A program made the translations under genes and the position numbers. Positions 40,522 through 54,363 of a stretch of DNA of 64,000 bases are shown here, one piece after another. The notes beneath the pieces were generated by a model that had not been told where the DNA came from, did not search any database, and worked only from the letters and a program-made list of their open reading frames with translations. Source of the DNA: Promicromonospora sp. AC04. Its GTDB lineage: Bacteria > Actinomycetota > Actinomycetes > Actinomycetales > Cellulomonadaceae. Location: positions 248,001-312,000 of the forward strand of contig NZ_QBUG01000003.1 in NCBI RefSeq assembly GCF_003058225.1, in the 5' to 3' direction. Within the stretch, counting starts at the first letter, position 1; each line of letters begins with the position of its first letter.

Positions 40522-40550
40522 AACCTCTGCGTCGCCTCACCCGTGGTGGG
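40522..40550 (+). promoter_or_regulatory. ECF-type promoter motif of the sigma remnant
   Basis: AACCTCT (40522-40528), 13 bases, then CGTGGTGGG (40542-40550), ending 4 bases before ATG 40555. The same arrangement occurs before the two intact sigma-factor loci at 48381-48408 and 54253-54281. The motif is conserved although the gene behind it has collapsed. Confidence 0.6.
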
Positions 40551-40554
40551 CGGT

Positions 40555-40968
40555 ATGAACGTGGAAACAGCCGAGCAACCCGTCGTCGACCCGGCACGCG
40601 CTCGGGTGCAGGTCGTGCGGGACACCGACGCGGAGTTCGCGGCGTTCGTGGGATCGGCCGGCCCGTATGCGCGGCGCATCCTGATGAATCTGCGGATCGA
40701 CGGCTGGCGCAAGGACCGGCGTGCCTGTGTGACGGACGAAGGCGTCGTGCCGCTCCCGGTCACCGCCCTGGACGTGTCCGCAGGGACCGTCGCCTGGTCG
40801 ACCGAGGACGGCTCGGCCTACGCGATGGTGGACAGGGACGGTGCCCCGGGCGTCGTCCGGCTCGCCCGCGAGCAGGCCGCGGTCGGGATCGACGGCGACC
40901 GTATCGCCTGGACCACCCTCGGCAACAACGGAGTCGCATCGACGACGTTCGCCCGCGTGCACTGGTGA
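40555..40968 (+). pseudogene. Internally deleted sigma factor/propeller remnant
   Basis: The 137-codon frame starts like the sigma-propeller fusion at 52221-54248: DTDAEFAAFVGSAGPY equals the beginning of sigma region 2. It then jumps directly to ARRILMNLRIDGWRKDR, the end of region 2, losing about 40 codons. After WRKDRRACV it jumps again to propeller-like sequence (VSAGTVAWSTEDGSAYAM, GIDGDRIAWTTL), losing region 4, the membrane helix and most of the sensor. No core-binding or DNA-binding unit is intact. The frame has stayed open, so a peptide may still be made. Confidence 0.75.
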
Positions 40969-42657: not shown

Positions 42658-42812
42658 AATCCCCATTCTGACTCGGCGTCCTATTTACCGGGCGGGCACG
42701 GCAAAATTCACCCGCTCGCATCACCGCCTCCCGTGGCTCACCCCCGCCGGCCGGGAGAACATGCGGCTGGGCGGGACGCGTCTGCGTCCCCGGGATGAGG
42801 GGGCGTGCCGTA

Positions 42813-44366
42813 ATGAGTTCGAGGATGCGTGTACCACTGAGCATGGCGCTCGGGGCAGCATTGATGGTGACGGGCGTCGCCGCGACGCCGAGCGTCGCGG
42901 CGGAACCGGGCGTCGCTCCGCCGCCCGGTGTCACCGCTGGGGAGACCATGACCGAGCGGGTCGACGACGTCGTCGTCAGCGCGCGGATCTCGCTGCCGCC
43001 GGGAGGTGACGTCGTCGGATCCATCACCGGGACCCTCAGCATCACGCACAACGGGAACTCCGCGGCCATCCGGTCCGGGGAGATCACCATGGTCGACCCG
43101 GAGGACCGGACACTCGTCGGTGAGGAGTTCGTCGCATCGGGGACGGCCAATACGTGGACCTCGACCGTTCCACTGCCCACCGACGCCGCACCCGGCATCT
43201 ACGAGGTCAGCGTGGCCGCCGAGATCGACGTGACCACGGATGACGGTGTGGTCAAGGTGCCGGTCCGCACCACCGATCCGGTCTACGTGCCGTTCCGGGC
43301 CAAGCGGAACATCCCCTTGATCTGGACGTCGGCGGCGAGCGTGCCCGCGGGATCGACGATCTCGGTCTCCGGGGCCGCGAACATCAGAAGCCTGGGAACT
43401 GGCGACTATGCGCCGGCCACGGGGCAGGAGGTGAAGCTGTACTTCGACCCGTCGGGCGACGCGTCGGAGACTCTCAAGGCGACCCTCACGACGGACGCGC
43501 GCGGCTTCTTCACCACCCGGCAGAGGCCCGGCGCGTCCGGAAAATGGCGGGCAGAGATGCCGATGACCGACACCGGTGCACGTGCAGTCTGGACCCTGAC
43601 GTCCGCGGAGCGAGAGCGTGAGACCACCCTGCGGCAGGCTACGGTCCGCGCCACCCAGGACGGCTTCAGCGCGGGCGACCACCTGATGACCCACGACGTC
43701 GTGCTGGGTCTCGCTCCCGTGCAGCGTCGCGTCGACGTCGGCAGCCTCGGCTTCACAGTGGGCGGGACGTCCGGCTGGCTCAGTGCCGAGAGCCGTCGCG
43801 GTGAGGGCGCCTTCCCGGACGGGTACCGGGTGCAGCGGGAGCTGGTGCACTCCGGACTCGGCACGAGCCATGCGACGTTCACCTTCAACCCGACGCTCCC
43901 GGCGGGCATCTACGACATCGGCATCCGGGACGCAATGAAGTCCTGTTCCGCCCCGGACTGGGACGGGCTCAACGGCGGCACCAGCAACTGCACGCACGAC
44001 GTCCTGGTCGAAGACCCCACGGTGACGACCGTGGTGGTGAAGCGCGCGAGCAGCACGAGCGTCGCGGCGTCGGACACGTCGTTCACCGGGCCGAAGACCA
44101 TCACCCTGAGCGGCACGGTGAGCAAGGTGCAGCTGCTCAGCACGGGCGGCGTAGCGGACCGGCCCGCGCCGAACACGCCGGTGGAGCTCTCCTTCGATCC
44201 CGCTGGCTCGGCGGAGCCGGTCTACAAGAAGACGGTCACCACGGGATCTGACGGGACCTACACGACACCGGTCCTGACCAGCGCCTCGGGTCGGTGGATC
44301 GCGAAGTACCCCGGCACCTCTCTGCAGGCGTCCTCGTCGGCGGCGGTGACGATCACGGTGAACTAG
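42813..44366 (+). CDS. Secreted protein A of a tandem paralogue pair
   Basis: A 517-residue exported protein without a recognised family. It has a signal peptide (MSSRMRVPLSM to SVAA, about 30 residues), several beta-rich domains with WT and FDPSG...TLKATLTTDARGFFTT patterns, a Cys pair (SCSAPDW, SNCTHD), and a C-terminal beta-sandwich (VKRASSTSVAASDTSFTGPKT to AAVTITVN). Two segments, around 205 and 475, both read x-L-x-FDPxG...x-V-T-T-x-x-x-G-x-(F/Y)-x-T, typical of repeated Ig-like domains. There is no anchor. AGGGGG at 42799-42803 precedes ATG 42813. A short stem-loop (42773-42790) lies in the 5' UTR. Its paralogue follows at 44613. Confidence 0.78.
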   Translation: MSSRMRVPLSMALGAALMVTGVAATPSVAAEPGVAPPPGVTAGETMTERVDDVVVSARISLPPGGDVVGSITGTLSITHNGNSAAIRSGEITMVDPEDRTLVGEEFVASGTANTWTSTVPLPTDAAPGIYEVSVAAEIDVTTDDGVVKVPVRTTDPVYVPFRAKRNIPLIWTSAASVPAGSTISVSGAANIRSLGTGDYAPATGQEVKLYFDPSGDASETLKATLTTDARGFFTTRQRPGASGKWRAEMPMTDTGARAVWTLTSAERERETTLRQATVRATQDGFSAGDHLMTHDVVLGLAPVQRRVDVGSLGFTVGGTSGWLSAESRRGEGAFPDGYRVQRELVHSGLGTSHATFTFNPTLPAGIYDIGIRDAMKSCSAPDWDGLNGGTSNCTHDVLVEDPTVTTVVVKRASSTSVAASDTSFTGPKTITLSGTVSKVQLLSTGGVADRPAPNTPVELSFDPAGSAEPVYKKTVTTGSDGTYTTPVLTSASGRWIAKYPGTSLQASSSAAVTITVN

Positions 44367-44401
44367 CCCGTCTCGTTCGTCGAGGTCGGGCTCGGCTCGG
44401 A

Positions 44402-44477
44402 AGGTCCGCTTCCACCAAGCGATTAGGCATGCATTCGCGCGATCGAGCATGCCGAACTGCTTGGTGGAAGCGGACCT
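44402..44477. repeat. 76-nt hairpin element, copy 1
   Basis: Arms of 31 bases (44402-44432 and 44447-44477, three mismatches) close a 14-base loop ATTCGCGCGATCGA. It lies 36 bases past the stop of secreted protein A and runs into TTCTCTCT, so it can terminate transcription. Copy 2 is at 46159-46234. Confidence 0.85.
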
Positions 44478-44612
44478 TTCTCTCTGGTGGCTCGCCAGCT
44501 GTGACTGGAGTGGAGAAATCACCCAGGCAGGGGCTGTAAATCGGGCATTCGGAGGCGAGCAGGCTGGGAGGATCCCGGGGTAGCACTGGCCGGGTTAGTG
44601 GAGAGGCGTTTC

Positions 44613-46145
44613 ATGCGGGCGACGACGCGGAGAGCAGTCGGTGTCCTGACTGCACTTCTTCTCACGGCAAGTGGTCTGGTGGCCGGCGCGGTGCCGGCAA
44701 ACGCAGGCTGGGCGACGCTCACGGGGGCGAGCGGTGATGTGCTTGTCACTGCCGACGTTGTTGCCACTGATGAGACCCAGGGCCTGTATGTCCGCATGGA
44801 TCACAATGGGACAGCAATCGAATTGACCACCGCGATGGTTTCGGTGAAGGGACCCTCGGGTGACCTGGTCTACTCGCGCGAGACCTCGTTCCAGCCGAGC
44901 TCCACCGGGTGGTCGGCCACTGACTTCGATCTTCCGGAGAACCTGGAGCTCGGTAGATACCTGCTGTCGTTCGACGCGACCGTTGTCGTACAGACCGAGA
45001 CCGGGCCGGTGGACGTGCGCCTCGCGGGCACAGACGTGGTCGAGTTCTACGAGCGCATCAGACCCAGGCTGGATGACTTCCGGGCGACTCCGCAGAACAT
45101 ACCGGCGGGAGAGAAGGCCGTGGTCTCGGGCATCGCGTGGCGCGGATGGGCCATCGGGTCGAAGCCGTTGGCAGGTGAACAGGTCCAGATCTGGTTCGAT
45201 CCGAAGGGGACTGCCCCGCGCGTCTACCGTGGCACGGCAACGGTCGACTCCCGCGGCGTCTTTCAGACGACGCTGACCGCACCGTCGGACGGCACCTGGC
45301 TGGCAACGGTCCCCGCGTCCGACAGGTTCGAGAATTCTGGATGGTGGGACACCGTGCAGGAGACGCGCGTGACCGATCGGACCGCCCACTCCGGTTCGGC
45401 GGTTGCCTGGACCAAGGGCTATGCGGGCGGTGTGCGGCTGGTCGCGACCGACGTCGTCGTTGGCGTCGACCCCGTGATCGTACGGTTCGATGCGGGCGTC
45501 GTCGGCTTTGGTTGGGCACGGAGCTCGAGCCGTATGTGGATCGACAGTCGGCGCGGTGAGGGGAAGTACCCGAACGGCGTCACTCGCGATCCTTTGCTCG
45601 ACTGGCCGTCGGCTGTGCAGCCCGACAACGAGTCCGAGGCGGAGGCCCAGTCGGACCATGCACTGGTACGGATCAGTCCGCTGATGCCGGCCGGCATCTA
45701 CGACGTCGGGATGATCGACCAGATGATTGCCATCTGCACGGCGCCTCCGTCCGGAGATCGTGGCGGCTGCATCGACGGCGTCTCGGTGACTGACCGGACC
45801 ATCACCACGATGACGGTGAAGCGCGCCAGCAGCACAAGCGTTTCGGCGTCGTCGACGTCGTTCACCGGGCCGAAGACGATCACGCTCCGCGGCGCAGTGC
45901 GGAAGGTGAAGCTGATCAGCGACATCAAGGTCGCGAACCGGCTGTCGCCGAACACGCCGGTGAAGTTGTACTTCGACCCGGCCGGCTCACGCGGCCCGGT
46001 CTACAAGAAGACGGTCCGGACGGGATCCGACGGTTACTACACCACGAGGGTCGGCACGAGCATCTCGGGCCGCTGGATCGCGAAGTACCCGGGAACGGAC
46101 CTGCAGGCTCCGTCGCACTCGGCCGTGACCATCACCGTCAGGTAG
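44613..46145 (+). CDS. Secreted protein B of a tandem paralogue pair
   Basis: A 510-residue exported protein, paralogous along its length to the one at 42813-44366. Shared landmarks are IWFDPKG, DSRRGEGKYPNGV (A: ESRRGEGAFPDGY), MPAGIYDVGMIDQM (A: LPAGIYDIGIRDAM) and the nearly identical C-terminal domain VKRASSTSVSASSTSFTGPKT, VYKKTV, SGRWIAKYPGT. Signal peptide: residues 1-32 (ending ANA). GAGAGG precedes ATG 44613; an in-frame GTG at 44598 is possible. Function unknown; secreted, unanchored. Confidence 0.78.
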   Translation: MRATTRRAVGVLTALLLTASGLVAGAVPANAGWATLTGASGDVLVTADVVATDETQGLYVRMDHNGTAIELTTAMVSVKGPSGDLVYSRETSFQPSSTGWSATDFDLPENLELGRYLLSFDATVVVQTETGPVDVRLAGTDVVEFYERIRPRLDDFRATPQNIPAGEKAVVSGIAWRGWAIGSKPLAGEQVQIWFDPKGTAPRVYRGTATVDSRGVFQTTLTAPSDGTWLATVPASDRFENSGWWDTVQETRVTDRTAHSGSAVAWTKGYAGGVRLVATDVVVGVDPVIVRFDAGVVGFGWARSSSRMWIDSRRGEGKYPNGVTRDPLLDWPSAVQPDNESEAEAQSDHALVRISPLMPAGIYDVGMIDQMIAICTAPPSGDRGGCIDGVSVTDRTITTMTVKRASSTSVSASSTSFTGPKTITLRGAVRKVKLISDIKVANRLSPNTPVKLYFDPAGSRGPVYKKTVRTGSDGYYTTRVGTSISGRWIAKYPGTDLQAPSHSAVTITVR

Positions 46146-46158
46146 CCGCCGCCTCGAA

Positions 46159-46234
46159 AGGTCCGCTTCCACCAAGCGGTTCGGCATGCATTCGCGCGAT
46201 AGAGCATGCCGAACTGCTTGGTGGAAGCGGACCT
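46159..46234. repeat. 76-nt hairpin element, copy 2
   Basis: Same element as at 44402-44477, arms 46159-46189 and 46204-46234, loop ATTCGCGCGATAGA. Only one position of the 31-bp stem is unpaired, and that can form G-U. It starts 14 bases after the stop of secreted protein B. Confidence 0.87.
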
Positions 46235-46264
46235 CTCTGAGCGGCCGCCCACGGACGTCGAACG

Positions 46265-47824
46265 TCAGTCATAGGTGCGGAACACAGCGTCTTCCGGGAC
46301 CGTCACGATCGGCGCTGCAGGCACTGCGCGCGCCCGCGCCTCCCTCTCCGCGGGCTCGCCGGTGCCCAGATCGCCGGTTTCCAGCAGGGTGCCGACGTTC
46401 ACCGTCACATCGGACCCATCGGTCGTGCTCCAGGCGATCCGGTCGCCGGCCAGGCCGACCATCGGCCGTTCTCGCGGACCACTCTGGCCGATCCGCACCA
46501 GGTCCGGGCCGGCAGCACGGCTCGGCGCGGTGTCGCGCACCAGATAGGCGACTGGTCCGGAAACCCAGGCGACGGTGTCGTCCGCAGAGAAGAGGCTGTC
46601 CACGCCGCTGTCTCCCAGATCCACGGTGATCGTCCGCGTCCCCTCGGGGTCGGCCAAGCCGTCCGTCCGCGGCACGACGACGAGGTCGCCGCCCGCCAGC
46701 ACAAACGTGAGCACGTCGTCGGTGATGTCGACGAGCTGAACATAGGTCGTGCGCGGATGTTCCAGCGTGAGGACCGTCGTCTCGCTGCCGTCATCCCCGA
46801 ACGAGGTGAACGCCGTGGTCAGGGTGTCTCCGGACTGCTCGCCGAGCACGGCCACCACGATCTCGTCGTCGTCCGCCCCGATCGCGGTGGCGCGCACCGC
46901 CAGATTCTCGGGTCTTCCCGAGTTGATTGAAGCCGCCCAGGCGGGCATGGTCTCGGGTTCGACTGTCGACCCCACGCCCGTCGAACCTGCCGGAGCGCCT
47001 TCCTGGCGCCATGCCACGCGTTGGGCGGTCACGGCCAGGACGCTGCTGTGCTCGCCCTCGATCTCAGTGATGGAACGAGAGTTGCCGTCCTGGTCGGTCA
47101 TGGAGTCGCTTCGTGTGCCGCCCGCGGACAGGACGATCCGGCGTGGAGTCTGGTCGGCGCTGTCCGTCACGATCTCGAACCATGCGGCCTGGCGTCCGGA
47201 GGGGGTGATACTGCCGATCCTGTATTCCTCCTCGTCCGAGGACGTCATTGGCGTCACGAGCGGAGCCGCGATCGGGTCGCCCGCACCGCCATCGAACGGG
47301 TCGACCCGACGGAGGACGTGGCTGTCGCTCCCCGTAGCGCCTTCCGTCGGCGCTCTCCAGAACGTGCCGTCGTCGGTGAGCGTCTCCGGAGAAAGCCCTT
47401 CGCCCGGCAGTGCGGCGTCGCGCCGGACGTCGAAGCAGTCCGACATCGGGCGCGCGTCAGTCAGCTCGAACGTTATTCCGGGCCGCAGGCTCGTCGTCGG
47501 TTCAACGGGCGTCCGCCGCACCGCCGGCTCTGGCGGCGCGCACTCAGACGCGTCCGCGTCCACCAGGCCGAACAGCTCCCGTACCTGTTCGCTTCCCGGC
47601 AGCGTCACATCGCCGAGTCCCGGCACAGGCACCGGCCCCGCGAGGGCCAGCGAGAAGGTGACCGCGGCCGCCGTCGTGCAGGCGCCTGCCACTTGCCAGG
47701 ACCGCCGACGCCGCAGCGCGCGTCGGCTCCCGGCCAGCACCAGGTCCGGGTCGAAGACACGCTCGGCGACCGTATCGGCACCCGCTCGAAGGCGTGCCAG
47801 GACGTCCGTGTCGTCGATGCTCAT
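46265..47824 (-). CDS. Membrane-anchored propeller-like partner of the sigma factor
   Basis: A 519-residue protein with a 40-residue cytoplasmic N-terminus (VLARLRAGADTVAERVFDPD...SRRALRRRR), one membrane helix (about 43-62) and a large extracytoplasmic domain. That domain has repeated blade-like motifs (VTAQRVAWRQEG, SADDTVAWVSG, LAGDRIAWSTTDG) as in beta-propellers. By position and overlap (ATGA) with the sigma gene it should be an anti-sigma factor or sensor, but no zinc anti-sigma HxxxCxxC motif is present. It aligns with the C-terminal 485 residues of the fused protein at 52221-54248. Function is inferred from the gene pair. Confidence 0.75.
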   Translation of the reverse strand: MSIDDTDVLARLRAGADTVAERVFDPDLVLAGSRRALRRRRSWQVAGACTTAAAVTFSLALAGPVPVPGLGDVTLPGSEQVRELFGLVDADASECAPPEPAVRRTPVEPTTSLRPGITFELTDARPMSDCFDVRRDAALPGEGLSPETLTDDGTFWRAPTEGATGSDSHVLRRVDPFDGGAGDPIAAPLVTPMTSSDEEEYRIGSITPSGRQAAWFEIVTDSADQTPRRIVLSAGGTRSDSMTDQDGNSRSITEIEGEHSSVLAVTAQRVAWRQEGAPAGSTGVGSTVEPETMPAWAASINSGRPENLAVRATAIGADDDEIVVAVLGEQSGDTLTTAFTSFGDDGSETTVLTLEHPRTTYVQLVDITDDVLTFVLAGGDLVVVPRTDGLADPEGTRTITVDLGDSGVDSLFSADDTVAWVSGPVAYLVRDTAPSRAAGPDLVRIGQSGPRERPMVGLAGDRIAWSTTDGSDVTVNVGTLLETGDLGTGEPAEREARARAVPAAPIVTVPEDAVFRTYD

Positions 47825-48351
47825 CGCGCACCCTCCTCGAAGATCTCGCGCAGGCGGGCGATTCCGCGCGCGTTGGCGGACTTGACGGTGCCGAGGGCGA
47901 TTCCGAGCTCGCGGGCGGTCTGCTCCTCGGTGAGATCGAGCAGGTGACGCAGCACAACCACTCGCCGTTGCGACACGGGGAGGAGGGACAACGCGCGCAT
48001 CACTTCGTCGCGCACGGCGACGCCATCGTCAGGCCCTGCGATCGACCCGACTGGGACGACGTCGGACACGACCTCGCCGCGAGACCGGCGCCAGCCGTCG
48101 ATGCGTAGGTTGAGCAGGATGCGCCGGGCGTAGGCGCGCGGCTCACCGTCGCGAGCCTTGTGCCAGGACCGGTAGGAGCGTTCGAAGGTCGCCTGGACCA
48201 GTTCCTCGGCCCGGTGCGGATCGCCGGACAAGAAGAGAGCTGTCTTGTAGAGGTACGGACCGGCGTCGCGTACGAACGCCGTGAACTCCTGGTCCTTGGT
48301 GCGCGTGATGTCGACCCGGACCAGCGGATCGTCGCTCACCTCGGCGGACAT
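47821..48351 (-). CDS. ECF sigma factor (SigE-like family)
   Basis: A 176-residue group IV sigma factor. Region 2 is FTAFVRDAGPYLYKTALFLSG to RRILLNLRIDGWRR (about 23-88). Region 4 is ALSLLPVSQRRVVVLRHLLDLTEEQTARELGIALGTVKSANARGIARLR (about 120-170). It belongs with the actinobacterial SigE-type ECFs of the SGDPHRAEELVQ kind. ATG 48351 is used; GAGGGAG lies about 10 nt upstream. Upstream, at 48381-48408, is an AACC-N17-CGT motif also found before the paralogues, suggesting autoregulation. The gene overlaps its membrane partner by 4 nt. Confidence 0.9.
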   Translation of the reverse strand: MSAEVSDDPLVRVDITRTKDQEFTAFVRDAGPYLYKTALFLSGDPHRAEELVQATFERSYRSWHKARDGEPRAYARRILLNLRIDGWRRSRGEVVSDVVPVGSIAGPDDGVAVRDEVMRALSLLPVSQRRVVVLRHLLDLTEEQTARELGIALGTVKSANARGIARLREIFEEGAR

Positions 48352-48380
48352 GGTCGTGTGCTCTCCCTCGTCATGCTCCC

Positions 48381-48408
48381 CACCACGCGGCGGACCGTGA
48401 GAAAGGTT
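48381..48408 (-). promoter_or_regulatory. ECF-type promoter motif of the sigma operon
   Basis: On the minus strand GGAACCTTT, 14 bases, then CGTGGTG, ending 30 bases before ATG 48351. It matches the sites at 40522-40550 and 54253-54281, with a spacer one base longer. Confidence 0.55.
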
Positions 48409-52220: not shown

Positions 52221-54248
52221 TCAGTCGCGTTCCAGAGTGGGGGCGACAGTGCCCTCGACGAGCCACTGCCGCTGGCCCTGGTTCTCGAGCCAGGCGGTGC
52301 GGTTGCCCGCCAGGCCAGCGGTCACCGACTCGCCCGGGAACCGGGCGAGGTCCGGGCCGTCGTACCCGGAGGCCGACGGCGTGGCGCGGTACAGGTAGGA
52401 CGAGACGGCCGGGTCACCCGCGGTGTCGGTGCTGTTCCACGTGATCAGGCCTCCCGACGCGCGGAGATCCTCGACCACCCTGTCGGTCAGATGCACGATG
52501 CTGTCGGCGTTCCCGCGCCGGTCGAAGACGTACAGGGTCGCCAGGTCGTCGGCGTTCGGGCCGATCGCCACCCACGCGACGACGTCGGCCGTGACGGCGA
52601 CGTTCGTGATCTGGAGCGATGCCCAGTCCTCGTCGTCGACCTGCGCGACGGTGACGCCATCGGTGTCGCCGCCCGCGAGGTTGTCGAACAGCCGGACCGA
52701 CGTGGAGGTCGAGCCGCCCGGGCCCGGTTCGACGACCGCAGCGACCGCGGTGGACGCGTCGCCGCCGAGCGCGGTGATACGCCCGTCGAACTCCAGGACG
52801 GACCCGGTGCCCGAGACGGGCTTGGCGAAGAGGTGCCGGTCGTCGAACGGCCCGGCCGTCCACACCGCGTGCTCCTGGCTGAGGACGACGTCACGCAGGT
52901 CGTCGTCCAGCTCCGCGATGGTCTGGGGCTCGCCCCCGACCTCGACGGTGCGCAGCAGGGTGATCCTCGGCGAAGTCTCCGCGGCAGCGTACTCACCCCA
53001 GGCCACGCGGTCCCCGGCAACCGCGAGCCCAACCGGGAACATCGTCACACCCTGGTACTCCGACACGGGCACCGACACCGTCGGCTCCCCGTCCTCGGAG
53101 AGGCTCGTCCGGATGAAGGCGTCCTGGGTCGAGTCGCTGTTGTCGTAGAGCTGTGCGTTGTCGGCCAGCCAGACCTCGCCCGTGCTCGACAGCCCGCCGG
53201 GTTCGGGCATCGGCCCGCCGTCTTCGGTGACGGGCAGTCCCGTCTCGTCGAACGACCCGCGCGTGACCTCCTCAAGGTCCACGTCGTAGCAGGTCAGCGG
53301 CCGTGCGTCGGCGGCGTCGACCACCAGTGCGTCGTCAAGCAGGTCGAGGTCCTCGCCGGGCTGGCGCAGCAGAGCCGGCGTCGGGTCGGGCACCTGCTCG
53401 GGGCACGCGACCGGGGTGTTGCCGGCCGGCGTCGGGTCGGGACGGACGCTCTCGACGCGACCAGCGTCGAACAGGGGCGCGACCAGCTGCCCGCCCGGCA
53501 GCACGACCGGGCCGACGCCGGGCAGCGGCACCGGGCCGCGCGTCACCACCCCGAGCGCAATCAGGAGCACAAGGCACGCGGCCCCCACGACCTGCGCCAC
53601 CCGACGCCGCCGCAGCGCCGCCCGGCTCCGGTCCAGCACGGCCTGCTCGTCGAACGCCACGGGCTCGATGGCCTCCGTGCCGGCGCGGAGCAGGTCCCGG
53701 AGCCGGGCGAGCCCGCGCGAGTTCGCCGCCTTCACGGTGCCCACCGCGAGCCCGAGCTCGCGGGCGACCTCCGCCTCGGGCAGGTCCAGCAGGTGCCGCA
53801 GCACCACCACCCGGCGCTGAGTTGTCGACAGCTGTGCCAGTCCGCGGATCAGCTCGTCCCGCAGGACGACCTGCCCGGCATGGTCCGACGTCGTCGCGAC
53901 GGGGATCTTCTCGTCCCCCGGGAACGACTCGCGATGTCCGTGCCGCCAGCTGTCGATCCGTAGGTTGACCAGGATCCGGCGCGCGTAGGCCCGCTGCGTG
54001 TCCGGCTTGACCTTGGCCCAGGTGCGGTAGACCCGCTCGAACGTCGACTGGACCAGCTCCTCCGCCCGATGAGGATCCCCGCACAACAGGTACGCGGTCC
54101 GGTGGAGGTACGGGCCCGAGTCCCAGACGAACGCGGTGAACTCCGCGTCGCGGGTACGCGGCACGTCGACGTGCACCTCGCGCGTCCCGCTGTCCGACGG
54201 CCTGCCCCTCCAGAGGTTGCTCACGGTCGCCCCGTTCTCATGCGTCAT
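52221..54248 (-). CDS. ECF sigma factor fused to a membrane-anchored propeller-like sensor
   Basis: A single 675-residue frame. Residues 33-102 are sigma region 2 (AEFTAFVWDSGPYLHRTAYL to RRILVNLRIDSWRH) and residues 128-185 are region 4 (LAQLSTTQRRVVVLRHLL, ELGLAVGTVKAANSRGLARLR). A basic juxtamembrane stretch SRAALRRRRVAQ leads to one membrane helix (about 218-236). The remaining 440 residues are extracytoplasmic with blade-like motifs (LAVAGDRVAWGEYA, LSQEHAVWTAG, LAGNRTAWLENQG). The two-gene locus at 46265-48351 has the same parts as separate proteins. Both sigma regions look intact, so this would be a membrane-tethered sigma factor needing release or acting in situ. ATG 54248 is chosen; GTG 54257 overlaps the promoter motif. 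Confidence 0.85.
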   Translation of the reverse strand: MTHENGATVSNLWRGRPSDSGTREVHVDVPRTRDAEFTAFVWDSGPYLHRTAYLLCGDPHRAEELVQSTFERVYRTWAKVKPDTQRAYARRILVNLRIDSWRHGHRESFPGDEKIPVATTSDHAGQVVLRDELIRGLAQLSTTQRRVVVLRHLLDLPEAEVARELGLAVGTVKAANSRGLARLRDLLRAGTEAIEPVAFDEQAVLDRSRAALRRRRVAQVVGAACLVLLIALGVVTRGPVPLPGVGPVVLPGGQLVAPLFDAGRVESVRPDPTPAGNTPVACPEQVPDPTPALLRQPGEDLDLLDDALVVDAADARPLTCYDVDLEEVTRGSFDETGLPVTEDGGPMPEPGGLSSTGEVWLADNAQLYDNSDSTQDAFIRTSLSEDGEPTVSVPVSEYQGVTMFPVGLAVAGDRVAWGEYAAAETSPRITLLRTVEVGGEPQTIAELDDDLRDVVLSQEHAVWTAGPFDDRHLFAKPVSGTGSVLEFDGRITALGGDASTAVAAVVEPGPGGSTSTSVRLFDNLAGGDTDGVTVAQVDDEDWASLQITNVAVTADVVAWVAIGPNADDLATLYVFDRRGNADSIVHLTDRVVEDLRASGGLITWNSTDTAGDPAVSSYLYRATPSASGYDGPDLARFPGESVTAGLAGNRTAWLENQGQRQWLVEGTVAPTLERD

Positions 54249-54252
54249 GCCA

Positions 54253-54281
54253 CCCACTACGGGGGGAGTGGGTCAAAGGTT
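54253..54281 (-). promoter_or_regulatory. ECF-type promoter motif of the fused sigma gene
   Basis: On the minus strand GCAACCTTT, 13 bases, then CGTAGTGGG, ending 4 bases before ATG 54248. A transcript from it would be leaderless or nearly so. The motif is shared with 40522-40550 and 48381-48408. Confidence 0.58.
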
Positions 54282-54363
54282 GCACGGTTGACGCAGCCGC
54301 GTGCGTCCACGGCGGCCGCGGGCCGGGCTAGCGTTCGCGACCCGGCGGGCCCAAGATCAGGAC

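Follow-up and report, generated by a model that had tools for sequence, protein, structure and literature searches.

One polypeptide of Promicromonospora that joins an ECF sigma factor of the SigE family through a membrane helix to a predicted propeller sensor

The DNA analyzed here, a stretch of 64,000 nucleotides referred to below as the window, encodes on its minus strand a one-piece protein in which an ECF sigma factor of the SigE family is joined through a basic linker and a single transmembrane (TM) helix to a predicted beta-propeller. The frame, its domains and a BLASTP match with an E-value of 1e-17 agree with the initial annotation, which took this protein to be homologous to an adjacent pair of genes that encode the same parts separately. 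We lean towards the view that it is a membrane-tethered, self-inhibited sigma factor with its own receptor, which would be released by regulated proteolysis and would then activate its own gene. The same annotation had argued that a sigma factor built in this way would either need a release step or act while tethered, and our analysis supports that claim. Fused and split versions of one module lie 4 kb apart in one genome. Orthologues, remnants and a promoter predicted to be autoregulated are available as well. This coexistence allows one to ask what an anti-sigma partner must contribute, whether a tether and one helix are sufficient to keep a sigma factor silent, and whether its release occurs by proteolysis.

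The fused gene and its product

The gene and the parts of its product are located as follows.

52221..54248, minus strand: fused sigma-TM-propeller gene, 675 aa (ATG at 54248, stop codon at 52221-52223)
53934..54116, minus strand: sigma region 2, residues 45-105 (Pfam PF04542 Sigma70_r2, 41.3 bits, above the cut-off)
53700..53858, minus strand: sigma region 4, residues 131-183 (Pfam PF08281 Sigma70_r4_2, 47.3 bits, above the cut-off)
53601..53690, minus strand: junction or linker, residues 187-216, a D..xVLxxSRxALRRRR stretch without Cys or His
53538..53600, minus strand: single membrane helix, residues 217-237 (hydropathy 2.65)
53493..53537, minus strand: conserved GPVxxPGxGxVxLPG-like extracytoplasmic segment, residues 238-252
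52233..53294, minus strand: predicted beta-propeller sensor, residues about 319-672 (structure model, PDB propellers)

The longest open frame at this locus (52221-54257, minus strand) begins at an upstream GTG and would give 678 aa; the ATG at 54248 is the start common to the relatives and gives 675 aa. Counted from this ATG, the previously described frame of 675 codons with intact ECF regions 2 and 4 stands, both Pfam domains scoring above their cut-offs. The gene end at 54283 given with it had to be abandoned, as the stretch beyond the ATG contains the predicted promoter motif and is non-coding. The protein scores 151.9 bits against the NCBIfam model TIGR02983 (SigE-fam_strep; curated cut-off 141.55) over residues 35-191, and by this score and by the ECF layout of its regions 2 and 4 it belongs to the SigE family. 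The sigma part is followed by the 30-residue basic linker, the single TM helix and about 440 further residues.

Residues 217-237 are the only segment of the protein above the hydropathy threshold used. They are flanked by six Lys or Arg residues at positions 200-216 versus none at positions 238-254, and hydropathy and charge thus agree on a basic stretch followed by one membrane helix, as had been proposed. The full-length predicted model contains a continuous juxtamembrane-TM helix at residues 201-236, the confidence being low to middling over much of residues 190-243. On the outer side, G238, P239, V240, P243 and P251 are invariant in 23 aligned fused proteins. A zinc-finger anti-sigma domain of the ECF52 type in the linker was considered and rejected: the protein has no Hx3Cx2C motif and no zf-HC2 Pfam match at E<=1.

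The term "propeller-like" had been a guess from sequence, and it is now supported by a predicted structure of the sensor (pLDDT 82.6, pTM 0.82), which aligns across the whole domain with solved propellers in the PDB. Neither Pfam (17 sensor domains, E<=1) nor PDB sequences gave a convincing match to the sensors; one of the 17 touched a propeller Pfam model with an E-value of 0.063. Hence, the propeller assignment comes from fold comparison, the one approach that matched, the sequence searches being unconvincing.

Relatives, remnants and origin of the fused form

Three further features of the window are related to the fused gene.

47821..48351, minus strand: sigma gene of the homologous split pair, encoding a stand-alone SigE-family protein of 176 aa (TIGR02983 155.6 bits, scored on a longer 243-aa frame)
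46265..47824, minus strand: partner gene of the same pair, encoding a single-TM protein of 519 aa that is related to the fused sensor; ATGA overlap with the sigma gene
40555..40968, plus strand: remnant of 137 aa, derived from a group B fused sigma-sensor gene that has lost most of its middle

In a scan of 150 genomes of the family, in which up to 28 candidates per genome were scored, at least 35 copies among the best matches listed span the sigma/membrane junction in one frame, and they come from 13 genomes. At least 34 of them belong to 12 of the 13 Promicromonospora genomes, and one was found outside the genus, in 1 of 4 genomes of a genus inferred to be Myceligenerans from L084. The remaining Promicromonospora genome, G012, has no fused copy among the matches listed. 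The genome studied here carries four fused SigE-family genes. A sample of the phylum (396 genomes, 10 candidates scored in each, E<=1e-20) gave no fused copy outside this genome among the candidates scored. The initial annotation had called one-piece sigma-sensors rare; within the genus this is not so, as each of the 12 genomes has 1-4 fused copies.

Two dangers had been raised with the gene: that an assembly error had joined two genes, and that no related genome would have the same fusion. Both are answered by the copies described above. We also compared codons in seven pairs of group A genes, which are not independent of each other. The dN/dS ratio was 0.10-0.29 in the sigma part and 0.07-0.35 in the 30 codons of the junction, from which it follows that the joined frame is under purifying selection and is being kept. 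The ratios of the TM helix (0.23-0.70, 21 codons) and of the proximal segment (0.15-0.96, 24-25 codons) are noisy on account of the shortness of these parts, and that of the sensor was 0.47-0.74. A sequencing or assembly error is contradicted by the junction-spanning copies in 13 separately assembled genomes and by the selection acting on the junction. Decay does occur in this family, as is shown by the 137-aa remnant and by broken copies in two other genomes, and it would be compatible with an accidental fusion that has been frozen without function. Set against the same copies and the same selection, error and accident together are a very improbable explanation of the fused gene.

The syntenic site of the remnant, with the same neighbors, is occupied by an intact fused gene in L075, L078, L080 and L083. 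The neighborhood of the fused gene studied here is conserved in L064 and L069. In two other genomes of the genus the promoter motif described below precedes broken short frames (L176 around 2497, plus strand; L177 around 3381, minus strand), which are presumably eroded fused genes.

The region 46265-48351 had been described as the same parts in two overlapping genes, and it does consist of a sigma gene and a TM-protein gene sharing an ATGA. The BLASTP alignment of the fused protein with the split TM protein (27% identity, many gaps) covers the linker, the TM helix and most of the sensor; the linker of the fused protein aligns with residues 12-41 of its split counterpart, and the GPVxxPGxGxVxLPG-like segment occurs in the partner too. 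Judged from sequence, the fused gene and the overlapping sigma/TM-sensor pair are related by fusion.

The 94 sigma frames at related loci fall into two clean classes. In the extended class (24 frames), the C-terminal extension is 272-525 residues long, L079 with its 272 residues being the only case below 400, and a TM helix lies 20-39 residues past the sigma match. The split class (70 frames) has 0-33 residues after the match and no TM helix, and in 68 of the 70 genes, from named genomes, the sigma gene shares 4 bp with the next frame, for which a minimum length of 110 residues was set. Within their first 45 or so residues, the split partners typically have an LR-containing stretch and then a D..xVLxxSRRxxRRRR-like stretch in front of the hydrophobic segment; in this set of N-termini, L090 and L103 were read in a spurious frame, and L100 and one L134 gene from an upstream start. 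Where the split partners have the first of these conserved stretches, the fused protein has the end of sigma region 4.

The SigE-family split pairs are thus direct evolutionary relatives of the fused protein, with a homologous sigma factor, linker and TM helix and, for the pair in the window, a homologous sensor. They differ from it in being two genes and in the cytoplasmic part of the partner, which is about 45 residues long and includes an additional N-terminal stretch that is lost at the fusion point. In the class II anti-sigma factor CnrY, sigma4 is bound by helix 1 and sigma2 by helix 2; the average length of class I anti-sigma domains is 101 ± 33 residues (excerpts of PMC7406223). The cytoplasmic part of the split partner is similarly short and also has two conserved stretches, the comparison with CnrY being one of anatomy only, whereas the fused form retains only the second stretch. 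By this analogy, we propose a CnrY-like role. Residues 187-216 of the fused protein are a candidate in-cis anti-sigma helix.

The homology of the fused and split forms across the junction would also suit a simpler arrangement, in which constitutive cleavage of the fused chain soon after it is made, or internal initiation yielding a free sensor, would leave an ordinary sigma/anti-sigma pair. An in-frame GTG at codon 197 of 675, with a GGAGG upstream, could serve as an internal start in the window copy. However, the aligned codon is not a start in 4 of the 12 group A copies (L033, L034, L035 and L041), and none of the 26 fused copies has an ATGA in the 96 nt of the junction. We therefore regard this arrangement as quite unlikely.

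In a tree of 110 SigE-family sigma domains, 33 of them fused, the fused label requires 2 changes versus a mean of 28.6 for shuffled labels; this tree is also compatible with 1 change. Elsewhere in the same genome (contig C10, 196000-215900; L171) there is a tandem array in which four fused sigma-TM genes stand beside three split pairs. Its members share the basic-linker/TM layout and belong to a diverged SigE-like subfamily; the five of seven that were scanned have TIGR02983 scores of 96.6-124.5 bits, below the cut-off. A tree of 42 rows (15 fused), in which the seven array members were combined with a choice of 35 of the 110 domains, needs 3 changes, and its supported branches force at least 2. 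A single clean origin of the fusion was rejected once this second array had been included. Because the supported branches force at least 2 changes, in either direction, fusion or splitting has, on these trees, happened more than once.

Promoter motif and mode of action

The same promoter-like motif precedes three of the genes described above.

54254..54281, minus strand: predicted ECF-type promoter AACCT-N15-CGTAGTGG, separated by 5 nt from the ATG of the fused gene
48380..48408, minus strand: promoter-like motif with an N16 spacer before the split sigma gene (motif search)
40522..40549, plus strand: promoter-like motif before the shortened paralogue (motif search and position weight matrix, PWM)

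An alignment of the DNA before 24 fused genes, made without L038 and L053 with their variant motifs, shows CAACCT, about 15 bases, CGTnGTGG, a few bases and the ATG, with little conservation beyond; near-copies are included, so that the independence of the rows is overstated, and the last four rows were chosen by the motif itself. We take this layout to resemble that of ECF promoters. In 23 of 26 fused genes, the sigma frame begins with the ATG that adjoins the motif. The exceptions are L032, L041 and L042; in L042, the frame from this ATG is 476 aa long, too short for a fused protein, and it was counted as out of frame. At the four group D loci the motif is slightly different and the starts are in the sigma frame. 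With such spacing the transcript may be leaderless, starting at or near the ATG. The conservation of an ECF-like motif before the gene points to probable self-activation, and positive self-regulation of the fused gene is likely.

With the PWM, the site of the gene scores 43.3 versus a maximum of 16.1 in eight randomized windows, the site itself being part of the training set. The window contains no other strong site besides that of the remnant, the N16 spacing of the split gene lying outside the PWM. Hence, there is no local regulon that would support the circuit. The exact motif has 8 matches in the whole genome versus 1 for the reversed control; six of them precede sigma-sensor genes or the remnant, and two lie inside other coding frames. 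The 13 genomes of the genus have 50 matches versus 16 for the control. By their coordinates, 22 of the 50 coincide with sigma-sensor genes or remnants; the two coding matches are among the remaining 28. Neither the exact motif in these genomes nor the PWM in the window revealed a regulon.

Under the reading that we favor, the propeller would sense a ligand or a state of the envelope outside the cell, and the basic linker would act through a single helix to keep the sigma domain inactive at the membrane. Once the propeller fires, extracytoplasmic trimming would be followed by an intramembrane cut by a site-2 protease, which would set free a soluble sigma factor of about 24 kDa. The freed sigma factor would transcribe its own gene from the conserved promoter, and a regulon in addition. 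A homologue of the M50 site-2 protease is present in the genome, but a match was found in all 14 control genomes as well, so its presence adds little to the case for release. Of the further components that the release model calls for, we identified neither a cleavage site nor a site-1 protease, and neither a ligand nor a target gene. We also count against this model the three of 26 fused genes in which the ATG beside the motif is out of the sigma frame, and the genome G012.

The sigma factor might instead act while tethered, recruiting RNA polymerase at the membrane, with the propeller switching its conformation and no cleavage taking place. Membrane-bound one-component regulators do act tethered and uncleaved, and here a conformational signal could pass through the linker of 30 residues and the juxtamembrane-TM helix, which is continuous in the model; the failure to find a cleavage site also fits. 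However, a holoenzyme must reach dispersed promoters, and a tether would hinder it. Furthermore, IutY of Pseudomonas putida (ECF243), the closest architecture that has been tested, is a single polypeptide with sigma, TM and periplasmic parts that is activated by Prc and then RseP, the latter being required (excerpts of PMC5411451). Action in the tethered state is therefore unlikely, and by analogy with IutY, proteolytic release is the most likely way for the fused protein to work.

Known systems and divergence of the sensor

No mechanism had been thought to be described for such proteins. For this kind of protein one has been published, that of IutY; for the SigE-family/propeller group itself that statement stands, as we found no description of the group in the open-licence literature. 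According to the same excerpts, IutY acts together with the outer-membrane receptor IutA, and its periplasmic domain is an anti-sigma domain of the cell-surface-signalling type. Both proteins have a cytosolic ECF sigma factor, one TM helix and an extracytoplasmic domain in a single chain. In contrast to IutY, the fused protein is actinobacterial, belongs to the SigE family and has a propeller, and no Pfam match links the outer domains; the cell-surface-signalling domain is absent from the Pfam matches of the 17 sensor domains at E<=1. The fused protein is thus like IutY in layout and outside its group by its outer domain.

In the available excerpts of a review (PMC8999054), IutY is the only fused membrane sigma factor whose proteolytic activation has been characterized, and ECF48, ECF52 and ECF53 are expected to be released in a similar manner. 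Proteolytic release has been proposed for the ECF52 protein SCO4117 of Streptomyces coelicolor, and its autoregulation suggested (excerpts of PMC5826349). The extensions of all three groups contain a zinc-finger domain, to which ECF52 adds a proline-rich region and a carbohydrate-binding module (PMC8999054, PMC5826349). These groups share with the fused protein an actinobacterial ECF sigma factor with a C-terminal TM extension, whereas it fails their zinc-finger feature, the groups having been compared by their descriptions in these excerpts. One-piece sigma-sensors as such are therefore already described in IutY and predicted in ECF48, ECF52 and ECF53.

The sensor evolves much faster than the part inside the cell, its dN being about four to ten times that of the sigma part, and this may reflect diversification or loose constraint. 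Such fast-changing propellers raise the testable question of what these bacteria recognize outside the cell. A broader reading, possible though doubtful, is that in Promicromonospora a sigma/anti-sigma system of two genes has become a diversifying family of self-contained receptor-transcription factors, in which a CnrY-like module would have collapsed in cis to one basic helix masking sigma2. We propose for this case that, where the two genes were joined, the tail of sigma region 4 took the place of the partner's first helix. The sigma part, linker and TM helix would be nearly fixed, the genes would be duplicated, lost and perhaps converted, and the same kind of fusion would be present a second time in the diverged SigE-like subfamily of the same genome. 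If this were true, fast propellers and gene turnover would suit a recognition repertoire that faces variable partners outside.

Between the two group A paralogues of this genome, the divergence at fourfold sites is 0.17-0.22 over residues 1-265 and 0.29-0.64 beyond. This step along the gene is suggestive of gene conversion or sensor swapping. In comparisons with L010 and L030, the fourfold divergence is likewise lower in the sigma/TM part (54248 to about 53454) than in most of the sensor.

Two paralogous secreted-looking proteins (42795-44366 and 44598-46145, plus strand) are encoded between the remnant and the split pair, and their relatives adjoin the group B fused gene in other strains. Each of these two repeat-protein genes is followed by a copy of an 89-nt palindromic element (44393-44481 and 46150-46238, 93% identical). 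A further set with its 16-nt core lies on contig C4; the core has 8 matches in all versus 0 for the control.
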